From Siphonodentalium dalli (lineage: Eukaryota; Mollusca; Scaphopoda; Gadilida; Siphonodentaliidae): 64,000 bases of DNA. Of this stretch, positions 34,040 through 56,196 are shown one piece after another. The stretch is from NCBI GenBank assembly GCA_032622095.1, contig CP136068.1, forward strand, positions 9,901,729 through 9,965,728. Direction: 5' to 3'. The first letter of the stretch is position 1, and each line of letters begins with the position of its first letter. Made by a program: the position numbers and the translations under genes. Under the pieces are notes generated by a model, which searched no databases, was not told where the DNA came from, and was given only the letters and a program-made list of their open reading frames with translations.

Positions 34040-34060
34040 ACTAAAAGTCATATTTCGTTT

Positions 34061-35517: not shown

Positions 35518-35549
35518 TTTCTGCGATACTAAGTCCTAAAAACACCGTG

Positions 35550-35679: not shown

Positions 35680-35849
35680 TTGATAGTAATGAAATATATC
35701 TTATTGCATTGCTGTAGTTTTATACAGACCAACAATACTCGAGACATGACGCGCGATCACGACAGGGCATGAGTTAATCTGCTAGAACAATGTTCCCACA
35801 CAGAGCCAGGCCATGTGGTGTTATTTAAGGTCGACGCCGCTTATCATGG
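35680..35849 (+). other. Left end of the 20.5-kb insert
   Basis: Begins TTGATAGTAATGAAATATAT. ACAGACCAACAATA (35,724-35,737) has an inverted near-match (ACAGACCAACCATA) at the far end of the insert (about 56,178-56,191), a possible relic of short inverted ends. No coding. Confidence 0.4.
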
Positions 35850-35986
35850 CACCTCTCAGATTCCAGAGCAGACGGTGTTACAGTAAAACCAAGTGGTATT
35901 CGTGTGGAATCATTTATACAGATTACTTCTCAAAGATAGGCTGTTCAGACAAGCTTTTGTTAATACCGTCAGTGCCGTAGACTTGT
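35850..35986 (+). repeat. 137-bp direct repeat, left copy (DIRS 5' leader)
   Basis: From CACCTCTCAGATTCCAG to GTAGACTTGT. Identical to 54,564-54,700 except one base (GAGCAG here, GATCAG there). It ends 7 bp before the ATG at 35,994 that probably starts the DIRS gag, so it may hold the promoter or leader. Two such copies recall the split direct repeats of PAT/Ngaro-type YR retroelements, but the expected neighbouring repeat pair was not found. Confidence 0.8.
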
Positions 35987-35993
35987 GTGAAAT

Positions 35994-37063
35994 ATGGCTC
36001 CTAGGAAGAAGTCGGTAACAAAAAAGGTTACGCCTAGCCCAGTTTCAACTTCGGGACGCACGACTACCGTCGTTCCCCTACTCGAGCTCGGACCCGTGAC
36101 GAATTGGTGTCACGATTGGAACTGATGGGCATTGTCGTGCCAGAAAAAATGACAAAAGACAATATTCTGTTGTTACTTATGGCAAATTCCAAACCAAAGG
36201 ATACAGGACTTGCGAACGACGTTGTCGCTTCATGTGTTTCCGACGATTCGGATGGTGTTGTATCGTTTCCTCACATGCAGGGGACTGTACCACGCTTGGA
36301 GCGTCCGGCATCGTCGGCGGACACACAACACACTTCCCCACTGGGAACAGATGACGGTATGTTCCATTTTAGACCCCACACCTCGGACTATATAACGGGC
36401 AATTTTCTGCTAAATGGTCGCGGTATTGACCCAGACTCTCTGGACACAGTTGATCTAGTGTCCCCGTCTGTTAGACATCTGATCATCACCGGTCAAGATT
36501 TCAACTTGGCCACGCTTCTGATCCCACATCACGGCCTGGACGTCTCACTCCGCCAGACCCCAGATACACCAAGCACACGCTTTGATCCACGGTTGGCCAG
36601 ATATTTGAGCTTGTCTGAATTTGTTTACGCCTTCAAAATGTATAAATCAATTATGTGTGAGCAGTACCCCAATCGTCGTGAGGAATTAGACATATACGGC
36701 AACATGATCGTCGACTTAGGACACAAATTTGGTGGAACTCTGTTCTACGATTACCACAGGGCATTCTCCGCGCAAGCAGCAACACTCCTACAATTGCGTG
36801 GACAAAAAATTAATTGGGGTAAAAGGGATACCAATCTCTTTGCTACAGTGTTTTCTGGCCATCAGATGTTGAGGTGCAAATCCTGCAACCAGAGCTCTCA
36901 CAGCTCAGAATTCTGCCCCTCTTTGCTGTCCAAGTCAGCCACACCACGATCAGCAGCAGATACAGGTACCCGGGCACAGCCACCACCCATGAAAGAAAGG
37001 AAAAGTCGAAATCGGTCTTTTCATAATGGCAAGGAAATATGTCTTAATTTCAACGGGGAATGA
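35994..37063 (+). CDS. DIRS-type Gag (disrupted)
   Basis: Structural protein of a tyrosine-recombinase retroelement. The main frame runs 36,038-37,063 and is open from 36,038. The only good ATG (35,994, MAPRKKSVTKKV, a basic start usual for DIRS Gag) is in another frame, so a one-base shift is needed between about 36,040 and 36,100, near a CCCC run. The body contains a LSEFVYAFKMYK-type helical region and a Cys/His segment CKSCNQSSHSSEFC at about residues 258-271 of the main frame. A TGA at 37,061 cuts through a second Cys/His motif that starts ICLNFNGE and would continue just beyond. Two breaks suggest a damaged copy. Its neighbour RT lies 140 bp downstream in the same frame. Confidence 0.75.
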
Positions 37064-37204
37064 GGTTGCTTCAGGAAATCGTGTCCATTTCTTCATGTGT
37101 GTGAAAAGTGTTTCTCCAACCACCCGGCAAATCTCTGTGTTAACCCTATTGATCAAAGGAAATGACTGGCCAGTAGTCCTGTTTATGGTCAGACTCCACC
37201 TGAA

Positions 37205-38335
37205 ATGGTGGCGTCCACCCCGATATCAACTTCACAATTGGAATTATTTCTGTCCGAGCATCCGGATCGTGAGTTTGTGTGTAATCTGTTGAGTGGCCTT
37301 CGCGAAGGTTTTCTTACTGGAGTTCGGAGTCTACCTTCGCATTCCTATGAGTGCCGCAATTTACAATCTGCGTTATCCCAGAAAGCAGCAGTGACCGAAC
37401 TGCTTACATATGAAGTGTTGAAGGGTTATGTTATTGGCCCTTTTGATGTGCCGCCATTTTCTCCATATAGAGTGAGCCCTCTGGGCGTGGCAACCGGGAA
37501 ATATTCTAATAAAAAACGGCTGATAGTGGATCTATCTTCTCCGCATGATCATGTTTCTGTTAGCAGTGTTAATGATCTTATCGACAAGGAGGAATATTCG
37601 CTGTCCTATATTCGTATTGATGATGCAATCCGCATAATTTGTGATCTTAAAAGCGTGGGAGATCCGGTTATGTCAAAATTTGATATTACGGATGCGTTCA
37701 AATTAATTTCGATTAATCCCAGTTTGTGGCACCTCTATGGGGTCAAATGGTTGTCGAAATATTACTTCTTTGTTCGTCAATGTTTCGGCAGTCGAAGTGC
37801 CCCGTGTATTTTTGATACTTTAGCTGTATCGTTATGTTGGATAGCATCAAATGTTTTTCTTGTTAAACATGTTCTACATTTATTAGACGACTTTTTGTGC
37901 CTAGATTCATGTGAAGCAGATGGCCTTCGATCCAAGGCCGTCATGACTATGATGTTCAACAATCTGAGAATTCCCTTGTCGCCGCACAAAACTATCGGAC
38001 CCACACCATGTTTGGAATATCTTGGTCTGTGTTTGGATGCCGTACGCATGGAAGTGCGTTTACCGAAAAATAAACAATCGCGTATAACAGACATGCTTGA
38101 TTTATTCCTAACACGGTCTAAGTGCACTAAACGTGAACTTCTCTCTCTGTTGGGACATCTGAATTTCGCTAGTCGAGCAATACCAGCCGGGCGTGCGTTT
38201 GTTTCACGCTTAATTAGTTTATCTACAACCGTGCGTAAACTGCACCATCACGTGACACTACCGGCGGACTGCATCCGGAATTACATATGTGGAAAAACTT
38301 TCTACGCGACTGGAACGGCGTTTGTCTGTTTTTGA
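37205..38335 (+). CDS. DIRS-type reverse transcriptase
   Basis: Copies element RNA into DNA. The first 40 residues have the LSEHPD...FVCNLLSGLREGF segment specific to DIRS RTs. The palm motifs follow: KKRLIVDLS, FDITDAFKLI (first catalytic aspartates), RQCFGSRSAPCIFD and HLLDDFLCLDS (the LxDD box). A thumb/connection region follows, with FLTRSKCTKRELLSLLGHLNFAS. The frame ends at 38,335, but coding character moves to another frame at about 38,280, where RNase H begins, so a single-base shift separates the two domains that are one polypeptide in the family. Otherwise this domain is intact. Confidence 0.9.
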   Translation: MVASTPISTSQLELFLSEHPDREFVCNLLSGLREGFLTGVRSLPSHSYECRNLQSALSQKAAVTELLTYEVLKGYVIGPFDVPPFSPYRVSPLGVATGKYSNKKRLIVDLSSPHDHVSVSSVNDLIDKEEYSLSYIRIDDAIRIICDLKSVGDPVMSKFDITDAFKLISINPSLWHLYGVKWLSKYYFFVRQCFGSRSAPCIFDTLAVSLCWIASNVFLVKHVLHLLDDFLCLDSCEADGLRSKAVMTMMFNNLRIPLSPHKTIGPTPCLEYLGLCLDAVRMEVRLPKNKQSRITDMLDLFLTRSKCTKRELLSLLGHLNFASRAIPAGRAFVSRLISLSTTVRKLHHHVTLPADCIRNYICGKTFYATGTAFVCF

Positions 38336-38832
38336 ACAATCAAACTGTAACCTCTGAGGATTTAAATTTATTCACAGACGCTTCCTCGACATGTGGACAT
38401 GGTGGGATCCTTGAGGGCACCTTGTGGTTTCAGGGTCAGTGGACTGCTGAATTCCAATCCGAACTCAGACGGTTAGATGAGTCGGCTTCTATGGCTTTAC
38501 TCGAGCTGTTTCCGATAATTGTTTCGACAGTGCTTTGGAGTAATTTGTGGTCACGTAAACGTATCGTGTTCCACTGTGATAACACTGCCACGGTTGCCAT
38601 CCTCAATAAGGGTAGAGGTTCCCATAAACATTCGTTTATCAACAGTTTAATGAGGCGGTTAACATTATGCGCTTGTCAATATAGCTTTCACTTTTCAGCC
38701 AAACATGTGCCAGGTCGTTATAATGTCATTAGTGATAAAATTTCTCGTTTTCAGGAATTTCGGCATTTAGCACCAGGAGCCAGTCAATTACCTGCGACGA
38801 TTCCACACCTGTCAGCGCTAATTCTGCCTTAG
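38287..38832 (+). CDS. DIRS-type RNase H domain
   Basis: Degrades RNA in the RNA-DNA hybrid. It opens with the MWKNFLRDWNGV connection typical of DIRS, then FTDASSTCGHGG (catalytic Asp), LLELFPIIVS (catalytic Glu), FHCDNTATVAILNKG (catalytic Asp) and AKHVPGRYNVISDKISR near the end. It is shifted by one frame relative to the RT frame with a 49-bp overlap, which I read as a mutation or sequencing indel. No adenine-methyltransferase domain follows, unlike DIRS1-group elements. Confidence 0.88.
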   Translation: MWKNFLRDWNGVCLFLNNQTVTSEDLNLFTDASSTCGHGGILEGTLWFQGQWTAEFQSELRRLDESASMALLELFPIIVSTVLWSNLWSRKRIVFHCDNTATVAILNKGRGSHKHSFINSLMRRLTLCACQYSFHFSAKHVPGRYNVISDKISRFQEFRHLAPGASQLPATIPHLSALILP

Positions 38833-39827
38833 ATTCTATCCAAAATAGCATATGGTATCACTCAATCAACGCATCTACTCGGCGGGCATACCAGTCGTCG
38901 CTTAATCACTTCATTAGTTTCTGCGTCAGGCATGGTCACCCTTGGAATGCAGCGGCGGAGTTGCCTATCATATCACAACACAGCATATTACAATATACTG
39001 CTTACTGCCATGGCGTCAAACATCTGTGTTATAGCACGATCAAGTTACACTTAGCAGGGATAAAGTTTTTCTACATGAGAAGCGGTATGTCTTGCCCACC
39101 AATTAGCGCTGATGGGTCATGGAATCACCGCATAATTGCTTTCATGCGCGGAGTTAAACGCATGCAGCGGGAACCTGCTCGGCCAAAACGCTCCCCAGTA
39201 ACAATTTCCATTTTGAAAAGCATATGCACAATTGTAAACCGTGGTTTCTTCTCTCATTTCATGGATCGCATGATGGAGGCTGTTTGCTCTATTGCGTTCT
39301 TCGGATTGATGAGAGCCAGCGAGTTCTCAGTTACCATAGGAAAATTTAACCCAGATATTCACCTCTCTGTGGGCGATGTGCGGTTTTTGCGTGGAGATAA
39401 GGGATGTCATTTAACGTTGAAAACTAGCAAAACTGACCCCTTTCGACACGGCGTTACTATCTATTTGTATCCAACAGATGCTCGCGTTTGTCCAGTAACC
39501 GCCCTGCGGTCATACATGAAATTGAGGGTGATTCCTGCGTCCACAAGTGTCACCGATCCTCTGTTTATCGACGAACGCGGTCACGCTCTTCGACGTGCGA
39601 AATTCATCAGTTTATTGAAGTCAATCATCCGTGTCATTGGCTTAGATCCCAGGAATTTTACCGGACATAGTTTCCGACGCGGTTGCGCAACTAGCTGTGC
39701 AGCCTTAAATGTGGACGATCATCTCATTAAGGCCATGGGTAGATGGAAGTCCAGTTGTTATACACGCTACATTGAGGTTGATCCTCAGCGCATACGTCAG
39801 ATACAAGCCAGGTTAGCCTCAGAGTGA
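38820..39827 (+). CDS. Tyrosine recombinase (DIRS-type YR)
   Basis: Integrates the element by site-specific-type recombination instead of a DDE integrase. The frame is open upstream into the RNase H frame, at least to 38,817, so the true start overlaps RNase H; no convincing ATG was picked. The N-terminal helical SAM-like part includes SINASTRRAYQSSLNHF. Counting from 38,961, the catalytic residues are R118 (FGLMRASEF), H236 and R239 (GHSFRRGC), W262 (MGRWKSS) and Y270 (TRYI). All five positions are present, so the enzyme looks intact. YR elements typically make no target duplication, which fits the clean insert boundaries at 35,679/35,680 and 56,196/56,197. Confidence 0.92.
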   Translation, partial: NSALDSIQNSIWYHSINASTRRAYQSSLNHFISFCVRHGHPWNAAAELPIISQHSILQYTAYCHGVKHLCYSTIKLHLAGIKFFYMRSGMSCPPISADGSWNHRIIAFMRGVKRMQREPARPKRSPVTISILKSICTIVNRGFFSHFMDRMMEAVCSIAFFGLMRASEFSVTIGKFNPDIHLSVGDVRFLRGDKGCHLTLKTSKTDPFRHGVTIYLYPTDARVCPVTALRSYMKLRVIPASTSVTDPLFIDERGHALRRAKFISLLKSIIRVIGLDPRNFTGHSFRRGCATSCAALNVDDHLIKAMGRWKSSCYTRYIEVDPQRIRQIQARLASE

Positions 39828-40352
39828 CATTTTGCTCCTGGTATATAGTCATCACATAATACATTCTGCGGATATCCACTAGTACAGTTTGGCTTTCTTG
39901 GGGGTTTTCGTTTCGCTTCACTATGTAATGTGGATGAGGCTGAAATGAAGTATAATAACATTGATTGTGGTGAAGTTATGATTAATACATGTGGAACAAA
40001 GTTGTCTTAAAATGATGATATGCGATATTAAGTTGTCTTAAAATGATGATACGCAATATTATGAGATTATGAAATAAATGGTGGGAAAAGCATATATGGG
40101 TTGGTATATAAAATGATCGTGCAAGCAGTCATAATGCGTGCTATATTGATATGTAGGCTAAGGTATGATAATAGAATGTAGAGATACAAGTATGAGAAGT
40201 AATGAATATAACAATACGGTAATAGTGCATGGTATGTTTTGTAAATGATGAATATTGGTGATGTATTATATAAATGCATGTTGTATTGTTAATAAAATCA
40301 TGACGATATGTATACATTCGGTATTGTGGTAATGAGAGACCAAATGTTTCTC
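39828..40352. other. 3' flank of the DIRS ORFs
   Basis: Non-coding. A 37-bp direct duplication (GTTGTCTTAAAATGATGATA at about 39,999 and 40,032) ends with TGTCTTAAAA, resembling the right end of the whole insert (CTGTCTTAAA, 56,187-56,196). This may mark the DIRS 3' terminus. Confidence 0.45.
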
Positions 40353-40712
40353 ATCTGCCGTCAATTGCACAGGGAATTGTTGAGAGCATGTGTCAGAGGT
40401 GAAATATTGTTTGGAGTGTGGTATATGAGACTTTGATTAATGCGTTTGTTGATAGTTGGCGAGATCCGTGACCAATGTTATTGAAGATAATCGGCGGTCA
40501 GTTGTCTAACTCTTGGGGTTGGCACGTGTCATATCTGCCGTTAATTGCTCAGGGAATTGTTGAGAGCATGGGTCAGAGGTGAAATATTGTTTGGAGTGTG
40601 GTATATGAGTCATTAATTAATGCATTTGTTGATAGGTGGGGAGATCCGTGACCAATGTTATTGAAGATAATCGGCGGTCAGTTGTCTAACTCTTGGGGTT
40701 GGCACGTGTCAT
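40353..40712 (+). repeat. 180-bp tandem duplication
   Basis: Two units with an exact 180-bp period (40,353 and 40,533), nearly identical, each starting ATCTGCCGT(C/T)AATTGC and ending GGTTGGCACGTGTCAT. Lies between the convergent 3' ends of the DIRS and retroviral units. Confidence 0.9.
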
Positions 40713-40823
40713 AATGGCGTTATTATATGCAGCTGACGTGGTATGCATGCAGTAACGATATTAGAATTAGTCTGTGGGTTTGTGCCCCTTATAGGAAAAA
40801 AAATGGTATTATTGGGAAAATGA

Positions 40824-41462
40824 TCAATATAGATTAAGTGGTGGGTTATGGATGGACGCGTGAGTTTTCATTATTTTCATAGGTCGTAGTGTGGATGATT
40901 CTTCATCGACATCTCGCGGGTGTTTTTTGGGAAATGTCAAATCTTCTTGTGTGATTTGTATTTGAGGTTCCTTAGCTGGAGACAAATGAATATCTTTCGT
41001 GGCTTCATTGGGTATTGGTGGGGTTAGTCTGTGACGAAGTTGCATATCAGTTCCCTTTATCATTTGGTTAAGTTTATTTCGTCGCTTTGCGATTTGAATT
41101 CGTCGCGTGTTGTGATTGCGTTGAGTCTGGTATTGGGAAATTTTCGTGATACACTGAATAATGTATTTGCGACTTGAGATGGCAATCAGTAAAATTAATA
41201 CGAACGTAATGACCGCGGGAATGATAATTTGGTAATAATCCTGTTTTTTCTTTTGTTTGATGGGTTGCAGGGATGTGACTGTTTGCAGAAAATTATATAA
41301 TGATAGTTGCTTTATGGGGGGTAACTTGTTTGGAATCGATACTTGAGGGGGCAAGTTATGAATTTGGGAAAATAGTGGCTTCCATTGTGGCAATTTATGT
41401 AATTCAATAGTTGATTGTAATTGGGTTATTTGTGTCTTGATGGTGATGTTTGATGAGTTCAA
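40824..41462 (-). CDS. Envelope C-terminal part (transmembrane and long tail)
   Basis: A 212-aa frame downstream of the envelope N-terminal frame. It shows a hydrophobic membrane anchor at about residues 78-96, preceded by KQKKKQDYY and followed by a cytoplasmic tail of about 115 residues, long for this family. Together with the upstream frame it makes the two halves of an F-type fusion protein. Roughly 285 bp of coding-looking sequence between them lies in other frames, so the gene is broken here (frameshift and stop). The upstream part of this frame is probably not a true N-terminus. Confidence 0.7.
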   Translation of the reverse strand: MNSSNITIKTQITQLQSTIELHKLPQWKPLFSQIHNLPPQVSIPNKLPPIKQLSLYNFLQTVTSLQPIKQKKKQDYYQIIIPAVITFVLILLIAISSRKYIIQCITKISQYQTQRNHNTRRIQIAKRRNKLNQMIKGTDMQLRHRLTPPIPNEATKDIHLSPAKEPQIQITQEDLTFPKKHPRDVDEESSTLRPMKIMKTHASIHNPPLNLY

Positions 41463-41748
41463 AGTTGTGAATGCAATTAGTTTGATACTGGCTGATGTAG
41501 CTATGCACCTTGGTGGTAAAGTTATCGTTGCGATGGGGGGTAAAATTGTGATTCTATACGGTCGTTTTCTTAAGAGATTGTGATGACAGTTTACTGTAAA
41601 TGTATGAGCTTTCGTGGTTGTTATAAGCCATGTACATGCCGCCAGCTTAATAGCGGATGGTAAATTATACTGAGGGTAAATGGCTATAGGGCAATTTGTG
41701 GCGGTATTTTTTGTATCATTGGTGAATATGTTGAGTAGGCAGTTATGA

Positions 41749-43014
41749 TTATGTGATGCGGCGATTGAAATTTTTTTGAATTTTACAATATGGTAATTTG
41801 TTTAAAATACACGGGTGATTGTCACCAATGGTGGTATATTTGGATCGGTCGGGAGATAATAGCAGGTAATTATGAGTAATATCGATTCGGGCAACTGTAT
41901 ATTTATTGTTGTGTCTGAGTCTTGGGTCTCGAGGGTCTAATGGATAAAAAAATGGTATAGCGCGGAATATGTCAAACTGCATTCTGATATCGCGTAAGTA
42001 AATTGTTATGGTAATGATTAGTCTGCTGTCTGTGAGTATGGTTTGTGTCTTCAAATGTTGGTAATATTTTGCAATTCCCGATTCTATGGGGAATGGTAAC
42101 TTCAAATGGGCTGGAAGTAATTTCGTTATACTGTCAAGTGCCTTTTTTAAATGTATTGGGCTTATGATCTCCGGTGTAAATCGGTGGTTAATTAGAGAGG
42201 CAATTTGAACTTTAAGATGTCGCAAATATAATTTTGCTTGGATAACATCTTGTTGTATTTCGTGTAATATTACTAGAAACTTAGCGTTGATGATTGTGAA
42301 TATTTCAATTGTATGCACATGTTTTTGGGTTCGATGTGTTTCTTTTCGAAGTGTGGCTTGAATATTGGATATTGTTGTTGATAATGTGTTGACTCGTTGG
42401 CGATTTTCGTTTGAAATGTCGCGTGTTATATTCATGATAGAATAAGCGGTTTGAGTATCGTGTTGGATTTTTTTTTGGTTTTGGTAGAGGGTTCGTATGT
42501 TATCTTCTACATGTGTAATATCTGACATCGAAGGGGTGCCAAATAAAAACTTAGCTATATCGCTTATTACGGGTAATATTGCTCGTTTGAGTCTTTTGGT
42601 ATTATGGAGTTGATAATAATTATGATATTCATATTGGATTTGTTTTGTTTCCGTGAGAGCCGCTGCTAATTCAGTTTGTAAATCTGTCAAAATGTTGATG
42701 AGATTAAAGTTAATGTTATTTGTCTCGTTCCTGAATGGAGGTTTGTTATGGTGATATGTGCTTTGATGAAACGTGGCACAAATGCTATTGAGTTTATTTT
42801 GGGCCATCCTTATGTCGGTAGCGAGTCTTGCTATGTAGGTATAATATGGTGTGAGTTCGATGAGAAAACTGAGATCCCAATTTTCATTTGAGACAGCAAT
42901 TTGCCGGTGATGCAAAAATAACATGTTCTGTCGAGTTAACATAGCGTCACTAGTTTGAAAGCCGATGATAAGTATGAAGAGGGTCGCTTTAACGAAGTTT
43001 TCTTTAGGCTTCAT
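41749..43014 (-). CDS. F-type envelope protein, N-terminal part (broken gene)
   Basis: Retroviral entry glycoprotein of the baculovirus F/errantivirus envelope family. The start at 43,014 is chosen because a signal peptide (hydrophobic TLFILIIGF, residues 11-19) follows. The upstream in-frame extension to 43,101 crosses a splice acceptor. Residues 141-144 are RLKR, a furin-type cleavage site, followed by a hydrophobic fusion-peptide-like stretch ending in LFGT (157-160), the hallmark of F proteins. A long helical region follows. The frame stops at 41,749 before any membrane anchor; the anchor is in the frame at 40,824-41,462. The gene is therefore interrupted in this copy. It is downstream of pol, separated by an unusual 3.8-kb gap. 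Confidence 0.85.
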   Translation of the reverse strand: MKPKENFVKATLFILIIGFQTSDAMLTRQNMLFLHHRQIAVSNENWDLSFLIELTPYYTYIARLATDIRMAQNKLNSICATFHQSTYHHNKPPFRNETNNINFNLINILTDLQTELAAALTETKQIQYEYHNYYQLHNTKRLKRAILPVISDIAKFLFGTPSMSDITHVEDNIRTLYQNQKKIQHDTQTAYSIMNITRDISNENRQRVNTLSTTISNIQATLRKETHRTQKHVHTIEIFTIINAKFLVILHEIQQDVIQAKLYLRHLKVQIASLINHRFTPEIISPIHLKKALDSITKLLPAHLKLPFPIESGIAKYYQHLKTQTILTDSRLIITITIYLRDIRMQFDIFRAIPFFYPLDPRDPRLRHNNKYTVARIDITHNYLLLSPDRSKYTTIGDNHPCILNKLPYCKIQKNFNRRIT

Positions 43015-43026
43015 ATCGCTTGCACC

Positions 43027-43044
43027 CCTATAAGTAAAAATATA
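43027..43044 (-). promoter_or_regulatory. Probable env splice acceptor
   Basis: On the minus strand a pyrimidine-rich TATTTTTACTTATAG precedes the env start by about 13-20 nt, a good 3' splice site. Errantiviral and retroviral env genes are translated from spliced RNA. A matching donor lies in the 5' leader at about 53,405. Confidence 0.6.
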
Positions 43045-44889
43045 GGTGTGTATTAGCGGGTTAGCCGGTATCTGATTATAAAGATAGATTCGCGTGGGCA
43101 TGGCTTATATGGGTTAACTGGTTTGATTAATCAATGAGACTTTTCGGCCGGTGTAAGTTTACTGTTTACTGTGTATCTGGGTACCCCCAGAAATCGACGA
43201 AAAATGACGTCACGCGATGCCAGTGTGTGTACCAATTAGCCGCGCTGCGTGCGCTAGGCATGTCGACGAAGGTAATTAGCGGTATAGCGGTATAAATGCG
43301 TTGGCCATTACGGCTGTGAATTATCTTTGATAGCTGTTTGTGCCTATATAATTTAACGTGGGCTACATCGTGCTAATGCAGATTGGTTTTATTGAAAATA
43401 TCACATGGACATCTGAATGTGAACGACAAGTGGTATTGCTGTATTATTTATAAAATGTATGTGTCACAGGGTGTAGGTATACCAACAGTCATGTCAATAT
43501 GGATATCAAAAGGCATATGAATAAATGCATATTGTGTACTGCTATATATAGGTTCTTATTGCTATATTTGACATGATTATTGGCGGAAATATTTTTTGAT
43601 TGTATAGCATTAGGGGAGTGCAATTGACGCATGGAATAGTAGTTCTATCTATATTGTAATGATAATATTTGATCGCGCATTGTCACGCGGCTCTGGTTAT
43701 CTTGGCGGTGGGGGGGGGGGGGGTATGTATACAATATCGTCGTGTTGGGAGATATTTTGCATGGTGATCTATATCGGTAGCATTGTATATGAATGGTAAT
43801 TGTATGTTCCTATTTAATTGTATTTATATATTTGAACAAAATGTGTTCCTGACGTGATATTTTGTTCCTGGGCAAATTATATCGGAAATTTGTATTCCGT
43901 TGTCCTATTGGAACAACTCGATGATTGTACGTGTGTGGGCTTTGGATGAAGAAACTTGATGCTTCTATATACGTGGGTTCTATACATCGTTTCGCCTTAA
44001 TGAATAGTAATGGTAGTATGAACTGATGTTGGACATGTGTTAATTTGAGTTATAAGATCCGATATAGGGCGTATATGAATATGTTATTAATGACAGTTAA
44101 TCATTGGCAAGTATATTTGACAATAATATATGGGGTAGGGAAGAATATGAAAAATATTGCTTAAGGACTGACAATATTTGTGTCGTTTGGGATATAGTGC
44201 ACATGGTGAGCCTATTTTGGCACTGTATATGCACATTTTGGTAAGCGGCGGTATTGGGTGAAGTTTGTACGTGAATTTCGTGTTCACGTGTATTGGATTT
44301 TTGTTTTATGCACGATATAGATGCATGTGGGGTCCGTGTATTGCGCGTTACATGTATGTAAGAGTGAGCTTCAGTTAGCTCTGTACATGTATCTGGGATT
44401 TTTATGCACGATTGTGCACTGTGTGTTCTATACATGTTAAGTTAACTGGGCCTTGATTGGCCGTTAACATGTACGTTGTATTTGGAGATTTTCTTGTGGA
44501 AGGGCGTTCGGGTATCATGGGAATTGGATGGGGAATTGTATCTCACTAGATACGTGGGGGGGGGGGGGGGGGGTAAGCGTACTAAATCGTTAAGGAAGGT
44601 TCACCTATCGGTGTTCATGTCGTAATAATTGGTGTGTGTGTGTCACTTAAGTTTGTTATTATGATACACTTGTGAGGTTGTGAACCTTGGTTAATTATTT
44701 CATCTAACTAGGATTATTTGAGTTTGATGAATAATTATGGATAGTTTTGGTTATGTTATGAGGCAGAAAAATTGGCTGGGTAATGTTTGTTTATGTTATT
44801 AGTTTATGTTGAAATATTCCTATTTATTGATATGATACTTGTGTAATATATTTTTATTGTATTTATTTATTTTATTTTTTTTGAGGGAA

Positions 44890-44938
44890 GCAAGTTTTAG
44901 CCCTGTGTGCATGGTGCACCGATGCACACTGGACTTGC
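44890..44938 (+). other. Stem-loop with TGTGCAT/ATGCACA stem
   Basis: GCAAGT and ACTTGC form an outer stem. TGTGCAT pairs with ATGCACA around GGTGCACCG, which is itself self-complementary. A compact, strong two-level hairpin in an otherwise AT-rich stretch. Confidence 0.55.
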
Positions 44939-45133
44939 CAGCATTGAGTTATATCTGATTATTAGATGATGTTTAGTGTGTTTATTTATCATTGGATATT
45001 ATGTTTAGATGTATCGAAGAGATATCGCTTGATAGCTGGTTAGATGTTAGCGGGAACAGGGGTTTGTAATATATATTTGAGATAGATAGTGCCTAGCATG
45101 TCCCTCGGGAATCTTCGAGAGTGCTTGCTTGGT

Positions 45134-45174
45134 TTGGCACAGCGTCCCGATTCCATACGGACGCTATCTGCCAA
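45134..45174 (+). promoter_or_regulatory. Stem-loop directly upstream of a TATA box
   Basis: TTGGC-AC-AGCGTCC, an 11-base loop, then GGACGCT-ATCT-GCCAA: two stacked perfect stems. It ends about 12 bp before TATATAAG. It could be a dyad binding site for a regulator of the small gene downstream, or an RNA structure. Confidence 0.5.
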
Positions 45175-45185
45175 TATGAGATAAG

Positions 45186-45193
45186 TATATAAG
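45186..45193 (+). promoter_or_regulatory. TATA box of the small + strand ORF
   Basis: TATATAAG in the context AAGTATATAAGGTG, 48 bp upstream of the ATG at 45,241, at the distance expected for a short leader. Confidence 0.55.
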
Positions 45194-45240
45194 GTGTGTG
45201 TGACTTATCGACAAGGGTTATTTCTGACATAATTTTCATT

Positions 45241-45516: not shown

Positions 45517-45572
45517 GAAGATGTTGGTGTGACAGCTGCCCCTGAAGAATTCGGACCGTCCCTGGATCAAGA

Positions 45573-45595
45573 GCTGGCTTGCATTCTGCAAGCTG
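45573..45595 (+). other. Hairpin after the small ORF
   Basis: GCTTGCA-TTC-TGCAAGC, a perfect 7-bp stem with a 3-base loop, about 60 bp after the stop codon of the 91-aa ORF. Could stabilise or end its transcript. Inference only. Confidence 0.45.
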
Positions 45596-46455: not shown

Positions 46456-46926
46456 CGTTTGCTATGTCAATGAATATATGATTGAGTTAAGCATATTGGA
46501 GGGAATGGAAATGTAACTGAGTCATGAACGGGAGTTTGCGATATTTCGGAGATTGGTGCGAGAGACAATGATCGACATATTGGCATGTTTCGTGAATAAA
46601 CAATTTATTCAAAGACGCCGAGTGTCAGTCATTAGCGAAAGATATATATTACATGTCGGTTAAATTTACTTCGGCATCATGACTCAATGCACACCTGTTA
46701 GCGATAATTGAATTAGAGATTTGGGAAACGAGATGATGCCCTGTTTAATGATCATACCACTGGTGTGAATGAAGTTTATCGTTTGGGTGTCTATCTCTGT
46801 GCCGAAGGGGGTGGGATGGGAGAATTGCAGTAGGGTTATGCCTTTGTAAGACCTGTTTTATATAATATTAATAAAAGTTATGTAAATTATCTATCATTAG
46901 TGATTGTGAGATACTTTGATACATGA

Positions 46927-49900
46927 CTATGAATGTTCGATATCAGTTGTCATCTGATATAAATCATATGTTTCCGTACTTTCGTTTGACCAATTTGTCG
47001 AACGGCTGTCGGGTGATGTATATTGGAAGGAATTAGAAAACGATGAATCTTTAGGCGTGTGTTTGGAGTATGGTGAATATATTTTACGATGCCGGCCGCG
47101 TTTGTTATCTGCGCGATCAGATTTTGTGTCTGGCGTTGTACGAAAAGAATTTTGCGTAATTAATTTGTGTTTTATGATATTTGGTTCCTGTGTTTGGGGC
47201 CTAGATTGGTCGCTGGGTGAAAAATCCGGGGGTGATTGGCTGTCTGTTTTATTAAAATGTTTCGAAGCCATGAGTCTGTTGGCTAATTCAGCCAATGGTA
47301 TTGAAGAGCTGTCGTCTGTGTTTGAGCGCTCAAGTTGAGCGCGCTTAATTGCCGTGGTTTTGAGGTCATCGTCTGATTCCAATGTGGATTGAGAGCTATT
47401 ATTATCGACACTGGCTTCACTCGGTGGAAATGCAAATCGATTATGTCGTTTATTTTTTAAGTGATTGGGAATTTGAGGTGTAGGCCAATCAATGGGGGAT
47501 GGTTTGATGTGTTTAGCATGTGATTTTGTTAATTTAGCAGATAGGTCATGTCTTAATATGTAAGATATGGGGCCTGTCTGTTTCAAGATACGCCAAAACG
47601 GCTCATATTTAAATGAAAATTTGTGATTTGGTTGGTGGATTTTGTAATAGACGGATTGGCCTATTTTAAAGGTTGGAATAGATCCACCTTTGTTCTGTTT
47701 GTGGTTGCGAGAGGCTGTTTCGAGAAGAGATTTTGTAGTTTTAAAAATAATGTGTTGATTTTGAAGCGTGGTGGCTAAAAAATCCTCTCCTAAATACTTT
47801 TCTCTGTGTGTTAAAATTCGGTCTATGCTTATCTGTGGTTCTCTAAAAAAAGTTAGAAAAAATGGTGAATGTGTATGTACACTGGAACAATGGAAGTTCA
47901 TTGCTTGTGATGCATAATTTAGATATAGGTCCCAATTTTCTACATTTGCTTGGGTGATTGTTGAAATGATTGATGCTAGACTTCTATGCGAACGTTCTGA
48001 TTTACCGTTACTTTGGGGTCTGTAGAACGAAGTGAGGCGGTGATTGATATGGTAATATTTACAAAATTCAGTGAAGGTAGAGTTTGCAAACTCGGACCCA
48101 TTATCTGTTAATATTTCTTCAACTGATCCAAATAAAGTGAAATACTCTGAATTCAATCTTTCTAAAATTGTATCCACCATTTTGTTAGGTAATGCGTATG
48201 CTAAAGTATGTAATGAAAATTGATCAATAATAGTTAAGATAAATCTATTTCCTGACTGTGTTTTGGGGGAAAATGGTCCCATAAGATCGATAGCTATGAG
48301 TTGTCCTGGCCTTGATGGGGCAGTGACTGGTTGAAGCGGGATTTTTGGATTATAAGCATTTCGTTGTCGGCATGTATGACAATTGTTTATGTATGTGACA
48401 ATTTTTGCAAACAACTGAGGTGTGTAATATCTGTTCCGTATGGTCGCGTATAGCGATTGTACCGCTCTATGGCCGAGACTGTGATATTGGGATATAACTT
48501 CTTGTGCTATTTTGTCCGTTATATATATACGTAATTTAGGTATGTCATTATATATTGATATATAGTGTAGGATACCATCTTTGAGAATAAAGGTTTTTGC
48601 TAATTTTTCGGGTATATTTGTTGATTGCATTTGTTTGATAATCTCGGAGATTGTGTGGTCTCCTGATTGTTCATCTCTTATATTAGTTATAGGAGGAAGG
48701 ACCGGGCTGTCGTCGAGATCAACTGGTGGTTCTGAATCCGTTTTCTGTTTTGGTTGTTTTTTTTGTTTTGAAAATTCCTGAATATCTTTCATGTCAAGTA
48801 TATTAATATCCTGTACAAGGGGATTGGTGGGTGGATTTGGGTCGCTATCGGTGCAAGAATTGATGCACGGGTGTGTGTCGGGGTTTATCCGACTGCAAAA
48901 ATCTGCCGTAACATTGTTCGTGCCTTTAATATAAGTAATTTTTGGGTTCAATGCTGATATTTCCAAAAACCATTTTTGAATTTTTGTGTTTATCAGATCC
49001 TGTTTTTTAAACATGTGGATGAGGGGTAAGTGATCTGTTTTAATCTCTACTTGGGATCCTTGTAAGTAAAATTTAAATTGCCTTGCAAACGTATATATCG
49101 CGAATGCTTCTTTTTCCGTGACAGAATAATTCCTTTGTGATTTGTTAAGTTTTTTACTGGCGAACGCGATTGGTAGTTCAACGTGTTTATCATCTTGGCT
49201 ATGAGCATATTGTGATAGTATCGCCCCGATACTATGTATAGATGCATCTACTGTCAGAATGAACAGTTTGTCGGGATTTGGGTAAGCTAAGATGGGGGCG
49301 GTTGCTAAGCTTTCTTTAAGCGCGTCGAACGCTGTTTGGCACGGCGCATCCCACACAAATTTAGCATATTTGGCTGTGAGTTTGATTAAAGGCAATGCCG
49401 TCGATGCGAAAGTAGGAGAATATGACCTGTAAAAATTAAGAATTCCCAGTAATCTGCGGACTTCTTTAACTGATTTCGGAGGTGGTAAAGACTTGATAAT
49501 TGAAATTTTTTCAGGGTCAGGGGATGTACCCTTGTCGGAAATAATATGCCCTAAAAATTTGACTTGTGGTTGGCAAAATTTAGATTTTGATAGTTTAACT
49601 ATTAAGCCGTATTCCCTGAGTCTGTCAAATAATTTTGTGAGCTGCTGTATATGCGTTTGAGGATCGGAGCTATGACAGATCAGGTCATCGACAAATCCTT
49701 CTACAAATGGTAAATCGTGTAGGGCCATGTTCATGAGTTTTAAAAAATACCCTGAGCTCGAGACATATCCCATCGGGGCTCTTTGATAACTGTATTGTCC
49801 TTCGGACGTATTCATAGTTAATATGGGAACATGTTCGGGTACGACTCCAATAACATGATAAGCATTTGATAAATCAAAGATACTGAAAATAGTTGAGCCG

Positions 49901-51663
49901 AGTAACTTGGACGATATTTCTGTAAAACTAGGCATAGACCATTTTAATGGAATGGAAACATCATTGAGTTTTCTGAGATCGATTACCAATCGATAATTGG
50001 GAGTACCATCGGGATTGGGTGTGGCTTTGCGTATGAGGAGACTGGGAAATCCCCACGATGAGTGGGCCGTTGGTCTAATAATGTCTGCATTTAATAATTT
50101 TTTTATCTCAGCAGCCATAATTCGTTGTTTGTTCAGTGGTGTCGGATATTTTTTGCAAAAAATAGGTAAAGTATTTGGTTTGAGGTCGATTTTCATTTTA
50201 ATTTTTGGACAATATCCTATCTTGTTTATGTCATTTGTAAAAACATCAGGGTATTGTGATACTAGTTGCAATATCTGCTGTTTAAGGTGTTGAGGTGCCA
50301 CGATATCATTGACAGATATAGGTTGAGTCTTGGTGACTGGAGGGTTAATGTCTTGCCGGTCACCTATGGTGTTTATACTGTGTTTGTTTGGCGGAGATGA
50401 GTTAATGTTTTGCTCATCGGATGCCGTGCATATCATTTGCTCTTGAGTGCCAAATGCTTGTGCTATCACACGGCCTTTCTTAATGGACATATGTGACGCC
50501 GATTGGTTTTCTATCATGACGCAAATATTGGGATTATTTGCATCTGCTAGCGTGTCGGTTACATGTACATTTGGTTCGTGTTCGAAAATGGACATGTTAC
50601 CTTTGCCTATTCGGATTATAGGTGTGTTAAACATATCATTTGGCCCTATGAGTCTGCCTGTTATGATGGCGCATGAGTGGGGTGATAATGAAACGTTATT
50701 TGTTGATCGGATGAGTGATGCAATGTGACCATCCCTTAACATCGGGTATAATTGATTCTGTATTCTGAATTTTTCTAGATCAAAGTAAAGTCTAATACTG
50801 TGTTGTTTCATAAAATCGCGCCCTAAAATGCAAGGACGTGACAAGGTTGCACATATGACAAATTTGTGAGTAAGAATGAGTTTTCCGATTCTAAATGTGA
50901 GATGTGTGGATCCAAAAACTTTCATTGGTGTACCATCGGCTGATGTGAGTAACACATGTTCTTTAATTAAAGGTGGTCGATTTGGCATGGATCTATAAAT
51001 GTCGTATTTCAAGCAACTGGTGGTTGCCCCGGAGTCTAATAGTGATCTAATCCGTTGTTTGTGTATTTTAATGATAGTTGAGCATGGTGTTTGGTTTAGA
51101 GCACAATCTGTCATATCACTTGGATATTTAAGTACTGGTATAGTGTGTTGTATGGGTTTGACTGGTGGTATTATAGGGTTAATTGCAGTATTGGAATGTG
51201 ATTCGCGAGAACTGGTGCATGTTGATTTTCTTTTGGATGATGAGTAAGAATTAGTAATGTGTTGGTGCTTGGGCTTTTCAAGGCGATTCAGGGTTTTAAA
51301 TTGGGGAGGAAAGGTTAAATCCAGAAGTGGTGAGATAGACTTATTGGAAGAATTATGAAATCTGGGTTTCATAGAGGAATACCTGCTATGGCAGAAAGTG
51401 GTATGTGTTACGTGCCTGTGGCGAGGGAGATCAAGTGGAGGCCGCGTACGGTAATTAATATATCGTTGGTTTTGGCAGTTTGGTGGTAGCGTGGGGTAAT
51501 GATTAATGGACTGCAGCTGTGAATTATAGACTCTATGCTTTTGAGATTCGTATGTTCGATGATCTTTAGCATATCTTTGATTGTGGTTGTATATTGTGCT
51601 AATTTGATGTGTTATTGGACTCATTGCGTTGCGTTGGTGGGTGGGGTGAAATTTTTGATGCAA
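46927..51663 (-). CDS. Intact Ty3/gypsy-class retroviral Pol (protease, RT, RNase H, integrase)
   Basis: A 1,578-aa polyprotein with all catalytic motifs. Protease: LLDSGATTS (Asp 210). Reverse transcriptase: FDLSNAY (596-602) and the FVDD box (657-660). RNase H: LTVDAS (Asp 806), EKEAFA and KTDH. Integrase: H1061, H1065, C1095 and C1098 zinc finger, then D1126, D1187 and E1223 with the D-x35-E spacing. A GPY/F-like module and a Ser/Asp-rich C-terminal tail of over 180 residues follow. The 200-residue N-terminal extension before protease is His/Asn/Ser-rich and unrecognised. The frame is open to 51,735, overlapping the last 65 nt of gag, and is +1 relative to it, so synthesis needs +1 frameshifting or reinitiation. 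Its intactness contrasts with the broken env and DIRS ORFs. Confidence 0.95.
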   Translation of the reverse strand: MHQKFHPTHQRNAMSPITHQISTIYNHNQRYAKDHRTYESQKHRVYNSQLQSINHYPTLPPNCQNQRYINYRTRPPLDLPRHRHVTHTTFCHSRYSSMKPRFHNSSNKSISPLLDLTFPPQFKTLNRLEKPKHQHITNSYSSSKRKSTCTSSRESHSNTAINPIIPPVKPIQHTIPVLKYPSDMTDCALNQTPCSTIIKIHKQRIRSLLDSGATTSCLKYDIYRSMPNRPPLIKEHVLLTSADGTPMKVFGSTHLTFRIGKLILTHKFVICATLSRPCILGRDFMKQHSIRLYFDLEKFRIQNQLYPMLRDGHIASLIRSTNNVSLSPHSCAIITGRLIGPNDMFNTPIIRIGKGNMSIFEHEPNVHVTDTLADANNPNICVMIENQSASHMSIKKGRVIAQAFGTQEQMICTASDEQNINSSPPNKHSINTIGDRQDINPPVTKTQPISVNDIVAPQHLKQQILQLVSQYPDVFTNDINKIGYCPKIKMKIDLKPNTLPIFCKKYPTPLNKQRIMAAEIKKLLNADIIRPTAHSSWGFPSLLIRKATPNPDGTPNYRLVIDLRKLNDVSIPLKWSMPSFTEISSKLLGSTIFSIFDLSNAYHVIGVVPEHVPILTMNTSEGQYSYQRAPMGYVSSSGYFLKLMNMALHDLPFVEGFVDDLICHSSDPQTHIQQLTKLFDRLREYGLIVKLSKSKFCQPQVKFLGHIISDKGTSPDPEKISIIKSLPPPKSVKEVRRLLGILNFYRSYSPTFASTALPLIKLTAKYAKFVWDAPCQTAFDALKESLATAPILAYPNPDKLFILTVDASIHSIGAILSQYAHSQDDKHVELPIAFASKKLNKSQRNYSVTEKEAFAIYTFARQFKFYLQGSQVEIKTDHLPLIHMFKKQDLINTKIQKWFLEISALNPKITYIKGTNNVTADFCSRINPDTHPCINSCTDSDPNPPTNPLVQDINILDMKDIQEFSKQKKQPKQKTDSEPPVDLDDSPVLPPITNIRDEQSGDHTISEIIKQMQSTNIPEKLAKTFILKDGILHYISIYNDIPKLRIYITDKIAQEVISQYHSLGHRAVQSLYATIRNRYYTPQLFAKIVTYINNCHTCRQRNAYNPKIPLQPVTAPSRPGQLIAIDLMGPFSPKTQSGNRFILTIIDQFSLHTLAYALPNKMVDTILERLNSEYFTLFGSVEEILTDNGSEFANSTFTEFCKYYHINHRLTSFYRPQSNGKSERSHRSLASIISTITQANVENWDLYLNYASQAMNFHCSSVHTHSPFFLTFFREPQISIDRILTHREKYLGEDFLATTLQNQHIIFKTTKSLLETASRNHKQNKGGSIPTFKIGQSVYYKIHQPNHKFSFKYEPFWRILKQTGPISYILRHDLSAKLTKSHAKHIKPSPIDWPTPQIPNHLKNKRHNRFAFPPSEASVDNNSSQSTLESDDDLKTTAIKRAQLERSNTDDSSSIPLAELANRLMASKHFNKTDSQSPPDFSPSDQSRPQTQEPNIIKHKLITQNSFRTTPDTKSDRADNKRGRHRKIYSPYSKHTPKDSSFSNSFQYTSPDSRSTNWSNESTETYDLYQMTTDIEHS

Positions 51664-51670
51664 TGAGTCC

Positions 51671-52813
51671 TCATCTGTTTAAAAATTGGTTGTTATTTTG
51701 AGCCCGACGTCTGCATTGGTCTGTGGTATGATTGTTTAATCTGCAGTATGTACAGAATAGGGGTCGTTGAGCTGTTGTAGTATATCTTGCATCCATGGTC
51801 TGGATGCGGTTTGGATGGGAGACCCTTGGTTCAGAGTAGGGGTGGTGAGAATTTGAAGGTTGGCGCCTGTGGGGGTGATCATTGATTCGGTGTCTGTCTT
51901 TGGATTGATGGGGGTTGTAAGTGGATTGTGATGGCCCTCTTGGAATGTGCCGATGGTTATTGTCGATATCCATTGGTTGAGGGGATTGTAACTGTGGGAA
52001 TTGGTTATAATCATTATGATGTTCACCGTAACGTAAGCGATAGCGTTGCCGAAGGTTCATTTCGCGTAGGGCGATATCAGTAGCTCTATCAAGCGTTATG
52101 GGGTCGTCTTTGAGAAGCCTGAATTTAATACTAGAGTCGCGAATACCGTCGGAAAAAAATGCTACTAATTGTGTTTGCACTGCTCTTGTGTTAATTTCAT
52201 CAGTATACGCGTGTTTAGCAAGGGTACGTATGCGTTCTGCAAACATGGCAATTGTTTCCGTATGTCTCTGCCTAATGGCTCGTAATGAGGAAATGGCTTG
52301 AGGCGAATCAGTTATGGAACTGAATAATGAGCGTAACTGTGATTTCAGATCGGTCCAGGTGAACGTGAATTTTCCGTCTGTGTTATTTTCATTTATGAAG
52401 CGTTGAATAAATTCAGAAACTTGAGATTTACATGTCTGAGCGGCAATTTTTATGATAGTCTCATCTTGTGCCGAAATCGCGCGGGAGTATTTTTCCACCG
52501 CATGGACCCATTGGGGAAAAGCGTCAGGCTTGCCATCGAAGGGTTCAATAATGTAATTCATTCCCAGCAGTGCTGTTATTGTTGTCTGTGTTTTTAAACT
52601 TTCAGTCTGGTCGCGGATAGAACTAGTGAAATGGCTAATTTCATGGGTAAGCCGTGACAATAGCAAGTTCTGATTATCTTTGCCCATTTCATTAGTAATG
52701 TCTGTGTGGGGGGGTCTGGCGGTTGATCGGTCCGTTTCCCTGTTTAATTCAAGGTGATGCTGATAATTGGTTGGATGAAAATAATCGCTGCTCTGCGGAG
52801 GTGGTGACTCCAT
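51671..52813 (-). CDS. Retroviral-type Gag (380 aa, intact)
   Basis: Core structural protein forming virus-like particles. It shows a proline/Ser-rich N-terminus, a coiled or helical stretch, and a capsid-like region with EPFDGKPDAFPQWVHAVEKY and LRAIRQRHTETIAMFAERIR, typical of gypsy retrotransposon Gag. A Gln/His/Arg-rich nucleocapsid ends in one CCHC knuckle, CTYCRLNNHTTDQC (354-367). The ATG is well placed, 14 bp after the stop of the upstream 185-aa frame. It precedes pol in the +1 frame with a 65-nt overlap. Confidence 0.92.
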   Translation of the reverse strand: MESPPPQSSDYFHPTNYQHHLELNRETDRSTARPPHTDITNEMGKDNQNLLLSRLTHEISHFTSSIRDQTESLKTQTTITALLGMNYIIEPFDGKPDAFPQWVHAVEKYSRAISAQDETIIKIAAQTCKSQVSEFIQRFINENNTDGKFTFTWTDLKSQLRSLFSSITDSPQAISSLRAIRQRHTETIAMFAERIRTLAKHAYTDEINTRAVQTQLVAFFSDGIRDSSIKFRLLKDDPITLDRATDIALREMNLRQRYRLRYGEHHNDYNQFPQLQSPQPMDIDNNHRHIPRGPSQSTYNPHQSKDRHRINDHPHRRQPSNSHHPYSEPRVSHPNRIQTMDARYTTTAQRPLFCTYCRLNNHTTDQCRRRAQNNNQFLNR

Positions 52814-52827
52814 TATGTTATTAAGGA

Positions 52828-53317
52828 TTAACGGTGTCTGTTTTGGGATCTATGGTATGGGTGCGAAATATGTTGAATTTTTTTCCAAGTGCCGTGGCGG
52901 TGTATTATGCGATTCAGGTGTATTTGACACGATTCAGGTGATTTATTAGGATGTTTTATGGGAATTGCCGCGACTATAGAGTTGACGATAAGTTTTGGAT
53001 AATCCGTAAAATGAGCCGGAAATGTATGCCACTCGTTCCAAGAATCTAGTGTATGTCCTGAGTAGTTATTTGTAATCATACAACGCACGTATAAGCGGAT
53101 TGTATCTTGCGTTATATCAATGCGAATGGGATTGCAATATTTAATGAGTTGTGGCGATAAAGTTATTTGGTGGGGTAAAGCGTATCTACAGTAAGTTTTA
53201 AAATGAAGAACTGAATGTTGTTTGTAAGAGGTGGGTGGTATGGGCTGATCGTTTGAAGCATGTATTGTAGTAGGATGGGTAGGTAGTGTAGGTGTAGTAG
53301 AATCAGGTGATGTGTCC
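52828..53317 (-). CDS. Novel ORF upstream of gag (unknown)
   Basis: The open frame reaches 53,385 (185 aa). The second methionine, MDTSPDSTT (start at about 53,317), is preceded by a hydrophobic stretch, so either a signal-anchor form (from 53,385) or this shorter form of about 162 aa is possible. It contains several Cys and a basic tail ending KKIQHISHPYHRSQNRHR. I recognise no domain. Most gypsy elements have no gene before gag. It stops 14 bp before the gag ATG in another frame, suggesting a bicistronic arrangement. It lies just downstream of a strong splice donor on the same strand, so spliced env RNA would skip it together with gag and pol. Confidence 0.6.
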
Positions 53318-53402
53318 ATAACCCACGTGAAAAAAAAAAGGAGTAAAAGAATGCTAAAAATAGGGGGTGTGCAATTTGACAGCAAATGGGAAAGAAAAGA
53401 TG

Positions 53403-53412
53403 GTCACTCACC
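53403..53412 (-). promoter_or_regulatory. Probable 5' splice donor
   Basis: On the minus strand, AAATTGGTGAGTGACC reads TTG|GTGAGT, near consensus. It lies 20 nt upstream of the first ORF and pairs logically with the acceptor at about 43,028 to make spliced env RNA. Confidence 0.6.
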
Positions 53413-53643
53413 AATTTCCGAGAAGAATAATGTGCACAAGTCTGTGATGATGAATGATGTATAGAATGTTCTCGTCGTGGTTATTGGAAGCCGAAGGATG
53501 TCCAAATCGGATGTTAAAGTTTATGTGGATCTGAATCTGGTCTGCAAGAGGCGTGAGTAGTAATATATTTTTTTTAGCTGGATACACGATGTGAGCTGGT
53601 TGTATAAGAATAAAAGGTTGATTCGTCTATATCAGATGAGTAT

Positions 53644-53923
53644 GTATGCGGTCCTGTGTGTCCGAAGGGTTGGTGTGCGGTCCTGTGTGTCCGAAGGGTT
53701 GGTGTGCGGTCCTGTGTGTCCGAAGGGTTGGTATGCGGTCCTGTGTGTTCGAAGGGTTGGTGTGCGGTCCTGTGTGTCCGAAGGGTTGGTATGCGGTCCT
53801 GTGTGTCCGAAGGGTTGGTATGCGGTCCTGTGTGTTCGAAGGGTTGGTGTGCGGTCCTGTGTGTCCGAAGGGTTGGTATGCGGTCCTGTGTGTCCGAAGG
53901 GTTCCTGTGTGTCCGAATGGTTG
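53644..53923 (+). repeat. 29-bp minisatellite, nine units
   Basis: Units G(T)(A/G)TGCGGTCCTGTGTGT(C/T)CGAAGGGTTG begin every 29 bp from 53,644 to 53,876, then a partial unit with CGAATGG. Units 4-6 and 7-9 carry the same order of variants, an 87-bp higher-order repeat. Because 29 is not divisible by three and no unit has a stop, all three + frames stay open. These long frames are artefacts. It lies in what would be the retroviral 5' leader. Confidence 0.92.
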
Positions 53924-54563
53924 AGTTATTGTTGACCGGTGCAGTGGTCTAGTGTATGAGACTGTCTATCCGTGGCTGGAGTGTAAGGCTGTATCCCCGT
54001 GGTTGAGTAGCGGTTTGAGATTGTTTCTGCTCTGTAGTGATCGTCTAGTGGCCGAGACTTCAAGTTGTGTGGTGAGACGTAGAACTGCTCATGGTACCAT
54101 TAATACTATGTGAGGTAATGACACATGTATATAGTAGGTACAAGTCTTTATTATGTTGTGAATAAGATATGCAGTGTGTACAAATATAATGATCAATAGT
54201 CGCCGCGAATTGGTGTCCCCGAATGGGTGATGCCTGGTGTGAATGATGCCTGGATATGATCTAGGTACGAGATGAGTCTAGTGAAAGCATGATGTGATGG
54301 GATGCAGTTGTTTCTTATATACTATTTGGGATGCATATTAGATGAGGTGTTTGGCAATACACATCGGGATTGGTTCTTCCGTTATGGTCATCTCCCTTGA
54401 CCATATTTGGGAGCCATCTTCATTGTGTGTATATCTTCGCTGAGAGTAAGACGTGTGAGGTTTCGAGAACCGAACACGAATATCTGAGTTTGGGGTTTTA
54501 TATATTGGGACATTCGTATAGTTTGAATCAAGTTGTGAGATTATAATGGGTAGTTATCTCACA
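53924..54563 (-). other. Presumed 5' non-coding region of the retroviral unit
   Basis: No ORF. On the minus strand an AATAAAGACTTGT polyadenylation-like signal occurs at about 54,146-54,158. No matching LTR copy was found near 40 kb, and no convincing tRNA primer-binding site could be placed. Confidence 0.4.
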
Positions 54564-54700
54564 CACCTCTCAGATTCCAGATCAGACGGTGTTACAGTAA
54601 AACCAAGTGGTATTCGTGTGGAATCATTTATACAGATTACTTCTCAAAGATAGGCTGTTCAGACAAGCTTTTGTTAATACCGTCAGTGCCGTAGACTTGT
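54564..54700 (+). repeat. 137-bp direct repeat, right copy
   Basis: Same orientation and 136/137 identical to 35,850-35,986. Here it is followed by unrelated CCGTCCATCC instead of a gag start. The near-identity implies recent duplication, template switching or gene conversion. Confidence 0.9.
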
Positions 54701-56196
54701 CCGTCCATCCACCCCACCTCCGCGGTGCGATGTACATATGTACATCGGTTTGGTTTTACAGTTAATAGATATTATAACTGTATTTTGTATGAAGAATCAT
54801 ACACACCAACTTAAAATAAAAATATTACATCTAGCTCGTGTCCAGACGTGATCTTGTGCTCATAGTCTCCAAAACACAACCTGCCAATATATTATAAATT
54901 TATGTTGTACTCTGTTTCAGCTTAGTATTCTATGTACATGCTTATTATTGACCATATATCTATAGTTTCACACATCTTATAATTTTCTACTAGTGCGATA
55001 GAGAAATTGGGAATGTTCAGTTTGCGAATAATTTAGCTTTATGCAGCTCGGTTTACGACTAGTTTACACTAAATTAAATTTAATGGCTTACTTTTTTGCT
55101 CAGCTGATAAATATTCACGTTTAATTTTAAGTCTAGTCAGCTTCTCCTTATGTCGGTCGTGGAATCTTGCGGTCATGCTGTCACCATTCGTGCAGGTTAT
55201 CACCATCGCATATGCGTTCTCAATTTTTTCTCATGGTTATCACCTGTGCCCAATTACAGTCTTCCAAAACGCTCTGACAGACCGGGCACCATGGGTTAAT
55301 TCGGTCACAGTTGTTAACCATATACTTGTGGACGTCTATGCTTTGGTGACACCCGCGCCCGCCACCTGTGCATTTGCGCGATAGCCTTATTATGGACGCA
55401 ATGCCTCACACACTCCTCATCGAGCACGTATCTTCATTGACGTCGTTGTACCTACCAGTTCAATCATACTGGTACACGTGAACGCTTTTGCTGCCTTTAT
55501 CAGAGAATACGTTGTACCTACTAGAGTCACCGATTCCTAGTACACGTGAACTGTTCTCCGGGAGGCAACTGCAGGTAGCTCGATACTGCCATGTGTGTGG
55601 TTCATTGCTCCTAAGGTGTGTAACCATTTGCACTCGTGCGCGACTCTTATCTGGCGTGTAGCCGTTTGAATACGATAGCACAGCTCCGTATCACGCGTGA
55701 AAGCCTTCTCATCCAAGGTCTGGCCGGTAACCATATGGTAATGGTACAATACTGTCTATCATTGACATCTCTACCATTCGCGTATGCGCGAAAGCTCCTT
55801 GTATCTACTCGATATTCATGATTGTCTGGTTCCACGCTTGGTTGGCTTTGGATACTGATATATCCTCCCCAATAAAGCCTGACAGGCATTTCACTCTAAA
55901 CCACCGCGGTGAAACCCGGTGTAAAATGCTTAACTACAATAGCCTGCCAGGCCTCTCATGTTTTCAATCGCTGTGGTAGACAAGACACTTAACAGACATT
56001 CTAGTATCATATGCAATCTTAACTCATTTCTGCATCGTCTGTATAACGGGTCTACACAGTGCCTACATAGTTGATTGTCAGGTGGAGCGAAAAATGAACA
56101 TTCCCCATGAAGCCAAACGTATATTTGTGTTTTATGTGTATATTTTATATAATCAAAATAAATATAGAAATCGTAATATGGTTGGTCTGTCTTAAA
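54701..56196. other. Right-hand non-coding part of the 20.5-kb insert
   Basis: No coding frame with motifs. Repeated motif GTACCTAC(C/T)AG...TAGTACACGTGAAC occurs twice (about 55,449-55,482 and 55,511-55,550), and 'CGTATGCG(C)' words recur. The end GGTCTGTCTTAAA abuts the right TIR at 56,197. Confidence 0.45.

Follow-up and report, generated by a model that had tools for sequence, protein, structure and literature searches.

We are highly confident that the 20.5-kb insert described here consists of a DIRS-type element whose direct repeats are split and of an independent LTR gypsy provirus, which most likely entered the internal repeat A2 of the DIRS element by means of its own integrase, and that, after or during this integration, a single deletion of ~1.08 kb likely took the 3' LTR of the provirus along with B1 and the first part of A2. 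The insert lies in a 64,000-nucleotide stretch of Siphonodentalium dalli DNA (the window, on contig 8), and comparisons were made with the 2.23-Gb genome in its nine contigs. The arrangement is ordinary nesting, three deep, in which a gypsy element lies in a DIRS element and the DIRS element in a terminal-inverted-repeat element, the LTR pair being hidden by the deletion. A preliminary description of this DNA had noted that + strand DIRS frames converge on − strand retroviral frames, and this arrangement is real: tyrosine recombinase and reverse transcriptase matches fall at 36038–39827, and those to gag and pol at 52849–46927. Two readings had been offered for it. Entry of a large retroelement into a DIRS copy, with LTRs missed by eye, is supported as far as the entry is concerned, but the LTRs had not been overlooked, as one is intact and the other deleted; a chimeric element moved by its tyrosine recombinase finds no such support, as set out below.

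The DIRS-type element (+ strand) occupies 35680–56196 minus the gypsy unit, and the limits originally drawn for the insert proved to be the exact ends of this element. Repeat A1 (307 bp, 35680–35986), assigned from the layout of an uninterrupted copy, is followed by a gag-like frame, open from stop to stop (36038–37063), in which a CX2CX4HX4C motif was read by eye and for which Pfam returned no match. The reverse transcriptase frame (37166–38335) matches PF00078 weakly (E 4.5e-4), and the frame after it (38239–38832) resembles RNase H by eye with no Pfam match. The tyrosine recombinase frame (38739–39827), still open in the window, matches PF00589 just below the cut-off (E 1.7e-5) and, on inspection by eye, contains the residues R, HxxR and Y; like this match, that to PF00078 falls below the curated Pfam cut-off. 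On the far side of the gypsy unit lie the remaining 137 bp of repeat A2 (54564–54700, +) and repeat B2 (353 bp, 55844–56196, +), whose partner B1 the window has lost.

The 137 bp of A2 are 99% identical to 35850–35986 in a self-comparison of the window from 33 to 59 kb, which confirms the earlier observation that a leader sequence recurs beyond the retroviral 5' end. This 'reappearing' leader is the end of the internal repeat A2 and is normal for this element. An uninterrupted copy of ~6.4 kb on contig C3 (L070) reads A1, open reading frames, B1 (353 bp), A2, 1.1 kb and B2, which is the A1-B1-A2-B2 repeat order of YR retrotransposons with split direct repeats, and is 98–99% identical to the DIRS parts of the window; the B1–A2 part is also present at three further loci (L004, L006 and L007). 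When the genome was searched with the 137-bp repeat and the best 40 of 64 candidates were scored, two neighbouring pairs of matches, on C3 and C2, lay ~4.6 kb apart, and other neighbouring matches were separated by 0.9–4.0 kb. The C3 pair belongs to the uninterrupted copy.

The DIRS element entered a terminal-inverted-repeat element without target duplication. It sits exactly between 35679 and 56197, within one arm of the recipient, and joining its two flanks restores a sequence that agrees with the other arm in 40 of 40 bases and includes no duplicated bases. Insertion of this kind is expected for a tyrosine recombinase. Self-comparison and the empty-site match place the left arm at 33753–34164 (+), and the right arm, on the − strand, in an inner part at 35550–35679 and an outer part at 56197–56470. 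The DIRS-interrupted element as a whole (33753–35679 plus 56197–56470) has arms of ~400 bp and carries 205-bp tandem repeats in its left part. Elsewhere in the window a 238-amino-acid frame (2665–3381), a remnant of another element, matches PF17919 and PF17917, the RNase H domain found in reverse transcriptases of gypsy type. It gave the single RNase H match obtained from six other open reading frames of the window, none of which was clearly a host gene, and Rfam and tRNA scans of the window were empty.

The gypsy-type LTR retroelement fills 39924–54563 on the − strand, with a complete 5' end and without a 3' LTR. A one-sided GC skew extends over 40.0–54.5 kb and stops near both joints, which marks this stretch as a separate unit. 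Reading along the − strand, the complete 5' LTR (455 bp, 54109–54563, TGTGAG...CTCACA), recognized by its match to the LTRs of other copies, is followed by a leader in which self-comparison revealed a 29-bp repeat present nine times (53644–53903) ahead of the first frame, by a 191-amino-acid open frame ahead of gag that has no Pfam match (52828–53403), by gag (392 amino acids, 51671–52849, PF03732) and by pol (1583 amino acids, 46927–51678). The Pfam matches of gag and pol lie above the cut-offs, and those of pol run in the Ty3/gypsy order of aspartyl protease (PF00077, 203–297), reverse transcriptase (PF00078, 557–713), RNase H (PF17919/PF17917, 776–908) and integrase (PF17921/PF00665, 1055–1221). 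Protein matches to pol are distant, at 22–35% identity. Between pol and the late gene described below, 3.8 kb (43105–46926) hold no open reading frame of 150 amino acids and include tandem stretches rich in G on the + strand. Close to the 3' end of the gypsy element, a tandem pair of 180-bp units occupies 40353–40713, a region whose length varies among copies elsewhere (L016 and L033).

That gypsy copies elsewhere in the genome, with their LTRs, might identify the ends missing here had been anticipated, and they do so. A query across the left joint (39780–40120) gave 208 candidates, and among the best 40 scored, 39 matches other than the window itself begin at 39920–39923 and are 99–100% identical. 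All 29 of the 3' loci fetched extend beyond 39923: 88 bp of further gypsy sequence come first, then 455 bp equal to window 54109–54563, and then flanking DNA; one of these loci (L032) measures 89 bp by coordinates instead of 88 and was not read by the exact-match script. The same 455-bp LTR stands at all 29 fetched 5' loci. Since the 455 bp occur at both ends of other copies, 54109–54563 is a complete LTR, and the 88 bp, which end in a purine-rich tract adjoining the LTR, are gypsy interior. From the two lists of scored matches, 22 pairs of gypsy ends sharing a contig and a strand were formed; the ends lie 13.1–15.0 kb apart in 20 of these and 5.5 and 10.9 kb apart in the two others. Both ends were fetched for six of the 22, and in every one the element is bounded by identical 4-bp flanks, that is, by a target duplication, with LTRs that differ from each other at 0–1 of 455 sites. 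The 4-bp duplications and near-identical LTRs of these six pairs indicate that the family is a conventional, young, multi-copy LTR retroelement. A TG...CA LTR pair with a duplication of 4 bp, within the 4–6 bp of Ty3/gypsy elements, is found in these other copies, and the window keeps the 5' LTR only. Two of the 29 5' loci (L055 and L056, contig C3), 33.2 kb from each other, share their orientation and an 8-bp 5' flank and so look like the outcome of a segment duplication rather than of two insertions.

With the undamaged form of both families at hand, the sequence missing from the window can be read exactly. At the right joint the LTR terminus abuts A2 precisely, and the first four bases of the surviving A2 (CACC, 54564–54567, +) probably represent the remaining copy of a 4-bp target duplication, by comparison with the 4-bp duplications of other copies. 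At the left joint (39923/39924), where one base is common to both sides, the DIRS side breaks off with 11 bp still to go to B1, and the gypsy side lacks the 88 bp that would adjoin its 3' LTR. The missing DIRS sequence amounts to ~534 bp (the 11 bp, B1 and the first 169–170 bp of A2); the gypsy loss, an LTR of 455 bp plus 88 bp of interior, and one 4-bp target copy bring the total to ~1.08 kb. The preliminary description had reported neither an LTR pair nor a target duplication; self-comparison of 33–59 kb likewise showed no LTR pair, but one complete LTR is present, and the pair and the duplication are invisible because the break at 39923 removed the 3' LTR and one 4-bp copy. The course of events would then have been the integration of a gypsy provirus into A2 of the DIRS element by its own integrase and, after or during that step, one deletion of ~1.08 kb that probably carried away the 3' LTR, one CACC, B1 and the start of A2. 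For the right-hand joint, an origin through the integrase is argued for by this one end together with the other copies, the window itself having neither a 3' LTR nor a target duplication. We infer that the loss at the left joint was one event; two independent deletions are possible.

It might instead be proposed that the insert is one composite, its retroviral genes being cargo for the tyrosine recombinase of the DIRS part; these genes do lie between the outer termini of a DIRS element that is otherwise complete and whose recombinase frame is open. No recurrence of the junctions at independent loci was found, however: a pattern for the left junction has one match in the 2.23-Gb genome at up to 3 mismatches, and the window alone spans the left joint among the best 40 of 208 candidates and the right joint among the best 40 of 1194 scored for that query, on which the uniqueness of the right joint rests. 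Moreover, the disappearance of B1 and the start of A2 is to be expected of damage and not of design, the gypsy family has LTRs and target duplications of its own (six of six pairs), and no DIRS sequence (match at E 1e-5 in the fetched 1–1.5 kb of flank) adjoins any of the 58 gypsy ends fetched elsewhere. A left junction found once and two families that live independently contradict the chimeric reading; we give it almost no credence, and nothing indicates that a tyrosine recombinase has moved retroviral genes. Very improbable, too, is that the assembly joined two unrelated stretches at 39923. Both families are multi-copy with nearly identical copies, conditions under which mis-joins may arise, but only one base is common to the two sides, and mis-joins between repeats usually fall within shared sequence.

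The manner in which the left joint arose admits a closer competitor. In a one-ended integration, the integrase would have joined the 5' LTR end only, and end joining would have sealed the other end at the cost of sequence from both target and element; no separate later deletion is then called for. The single shared base at the left joint fits such repair, and the final sequence would be identical to that left by a deletion after integration, so that with this sequence the two courses are inseparable. Against it, the testable sister copies integrated normally in six of six cases, and we consider it unlikely, though well within reach. A circular permutation, in which a circle with one LTR was opened inside that LTR and inserted by end joining, was suggested by the circumstance that the window at first seemed 88 bp short at both ends. 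As the 455 bp make up an entire LTR and the 88 bp belong to the interior, however, the right joint falls exactly on the LTR terminus, a position that random opening would seldom give, and the likelihood of this route is negligible. Integration of the provirus into A2, followed or accompanied by one deletion, is the explanation that we retain.

The gypsy unit had also been called envelope-bearing; its late gene is envelope-like in layout only, and homologues were not found in Pfam, the PDB (best E 1.7) or protein searches, none of which gave a significant match. In the window the frame is interrupted. Its first piece (41749–43104, −) has by eye a signal-like start and a dibasic RLKR site with a hydrophobic stretch behind it, although a hydropathy script flagged nothing in this piece at its threshold, and its second piece (40824–41801, −) contains a strong predicted membrane span; this is a layout that may resemble that of class I fusion proteins. 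Among 12 other copies, five carry the late gene as one uninterrupted frame of 759–762 amino acids and seven do not. A fold predicted from the single sequence had a mean pLDDT of 35 and was of no use. It is conceivable, if doubtful, that the family is a recently active retrovirus-like lineage of ~15 kb whose late gene of 759–762 amino acids encodes an undescribed type of cell-entry protein, acquired independently of known envelope sources, the DIRS context being incidental.

The analysis removes a candidate for a retroviral hybrid driven by a tyrosine recombinase, and illustrates how nested elements can come to look like a chimera: a single deletion spanning their joint is enough to erase, at one stroke, an LTR, one of the two target-duplication copies and a DIRS repeat of diagnostic value. 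The gypsy family, with its late gene for which no homologue was found, may deserve a description of its own. In its gag, its pol order, its TG...CA LTRs of 455 bp, its 4-bp target duplications and its long post-pol frame with a predicted membrane span, it resembles Ty3/gypsy elements (Metaviridae) that carry a third, envelope-like gene. It differs from these in a complete length of ~15.2 kb (the sum of 14,640, 88 and 455 bp), and the unit in the window differs further in the 3.8-kb gap between pol and the late gene without a 150-amino-acid frame, in the extra 191-amino-acid frame before gag and in a late gene without a detected homologue. Troyka LTR retrotransposons share with it the character of an LTR retroelement with a gypsy-related pol; their description gives CG...CG termini and 3-bp duplications (PMC12440569), whereas the gypsy elements here have TG...CA and 4 bp.

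The outer element, for its part, is to be compared with Ngaro-like and PAT-like YR retrotransposons. A methyltransferase is present in PAT and absent from Ngaro, and the DIRS frames of the window gave no Pfam match to one, a result that agrees with Ngaro, to be read in the light of the low sensitivity of a search in which RNase H also went unmatched. A zinc-knuckle-like motif is known in Pat1, and a similar motif occurs in the gag-like frame of the window. With both groups the element shares the order A1, gag/RT/YR frames, B1, A2 and B2, with the internal repeats placed after the recombinase, and insertion without target duplication.
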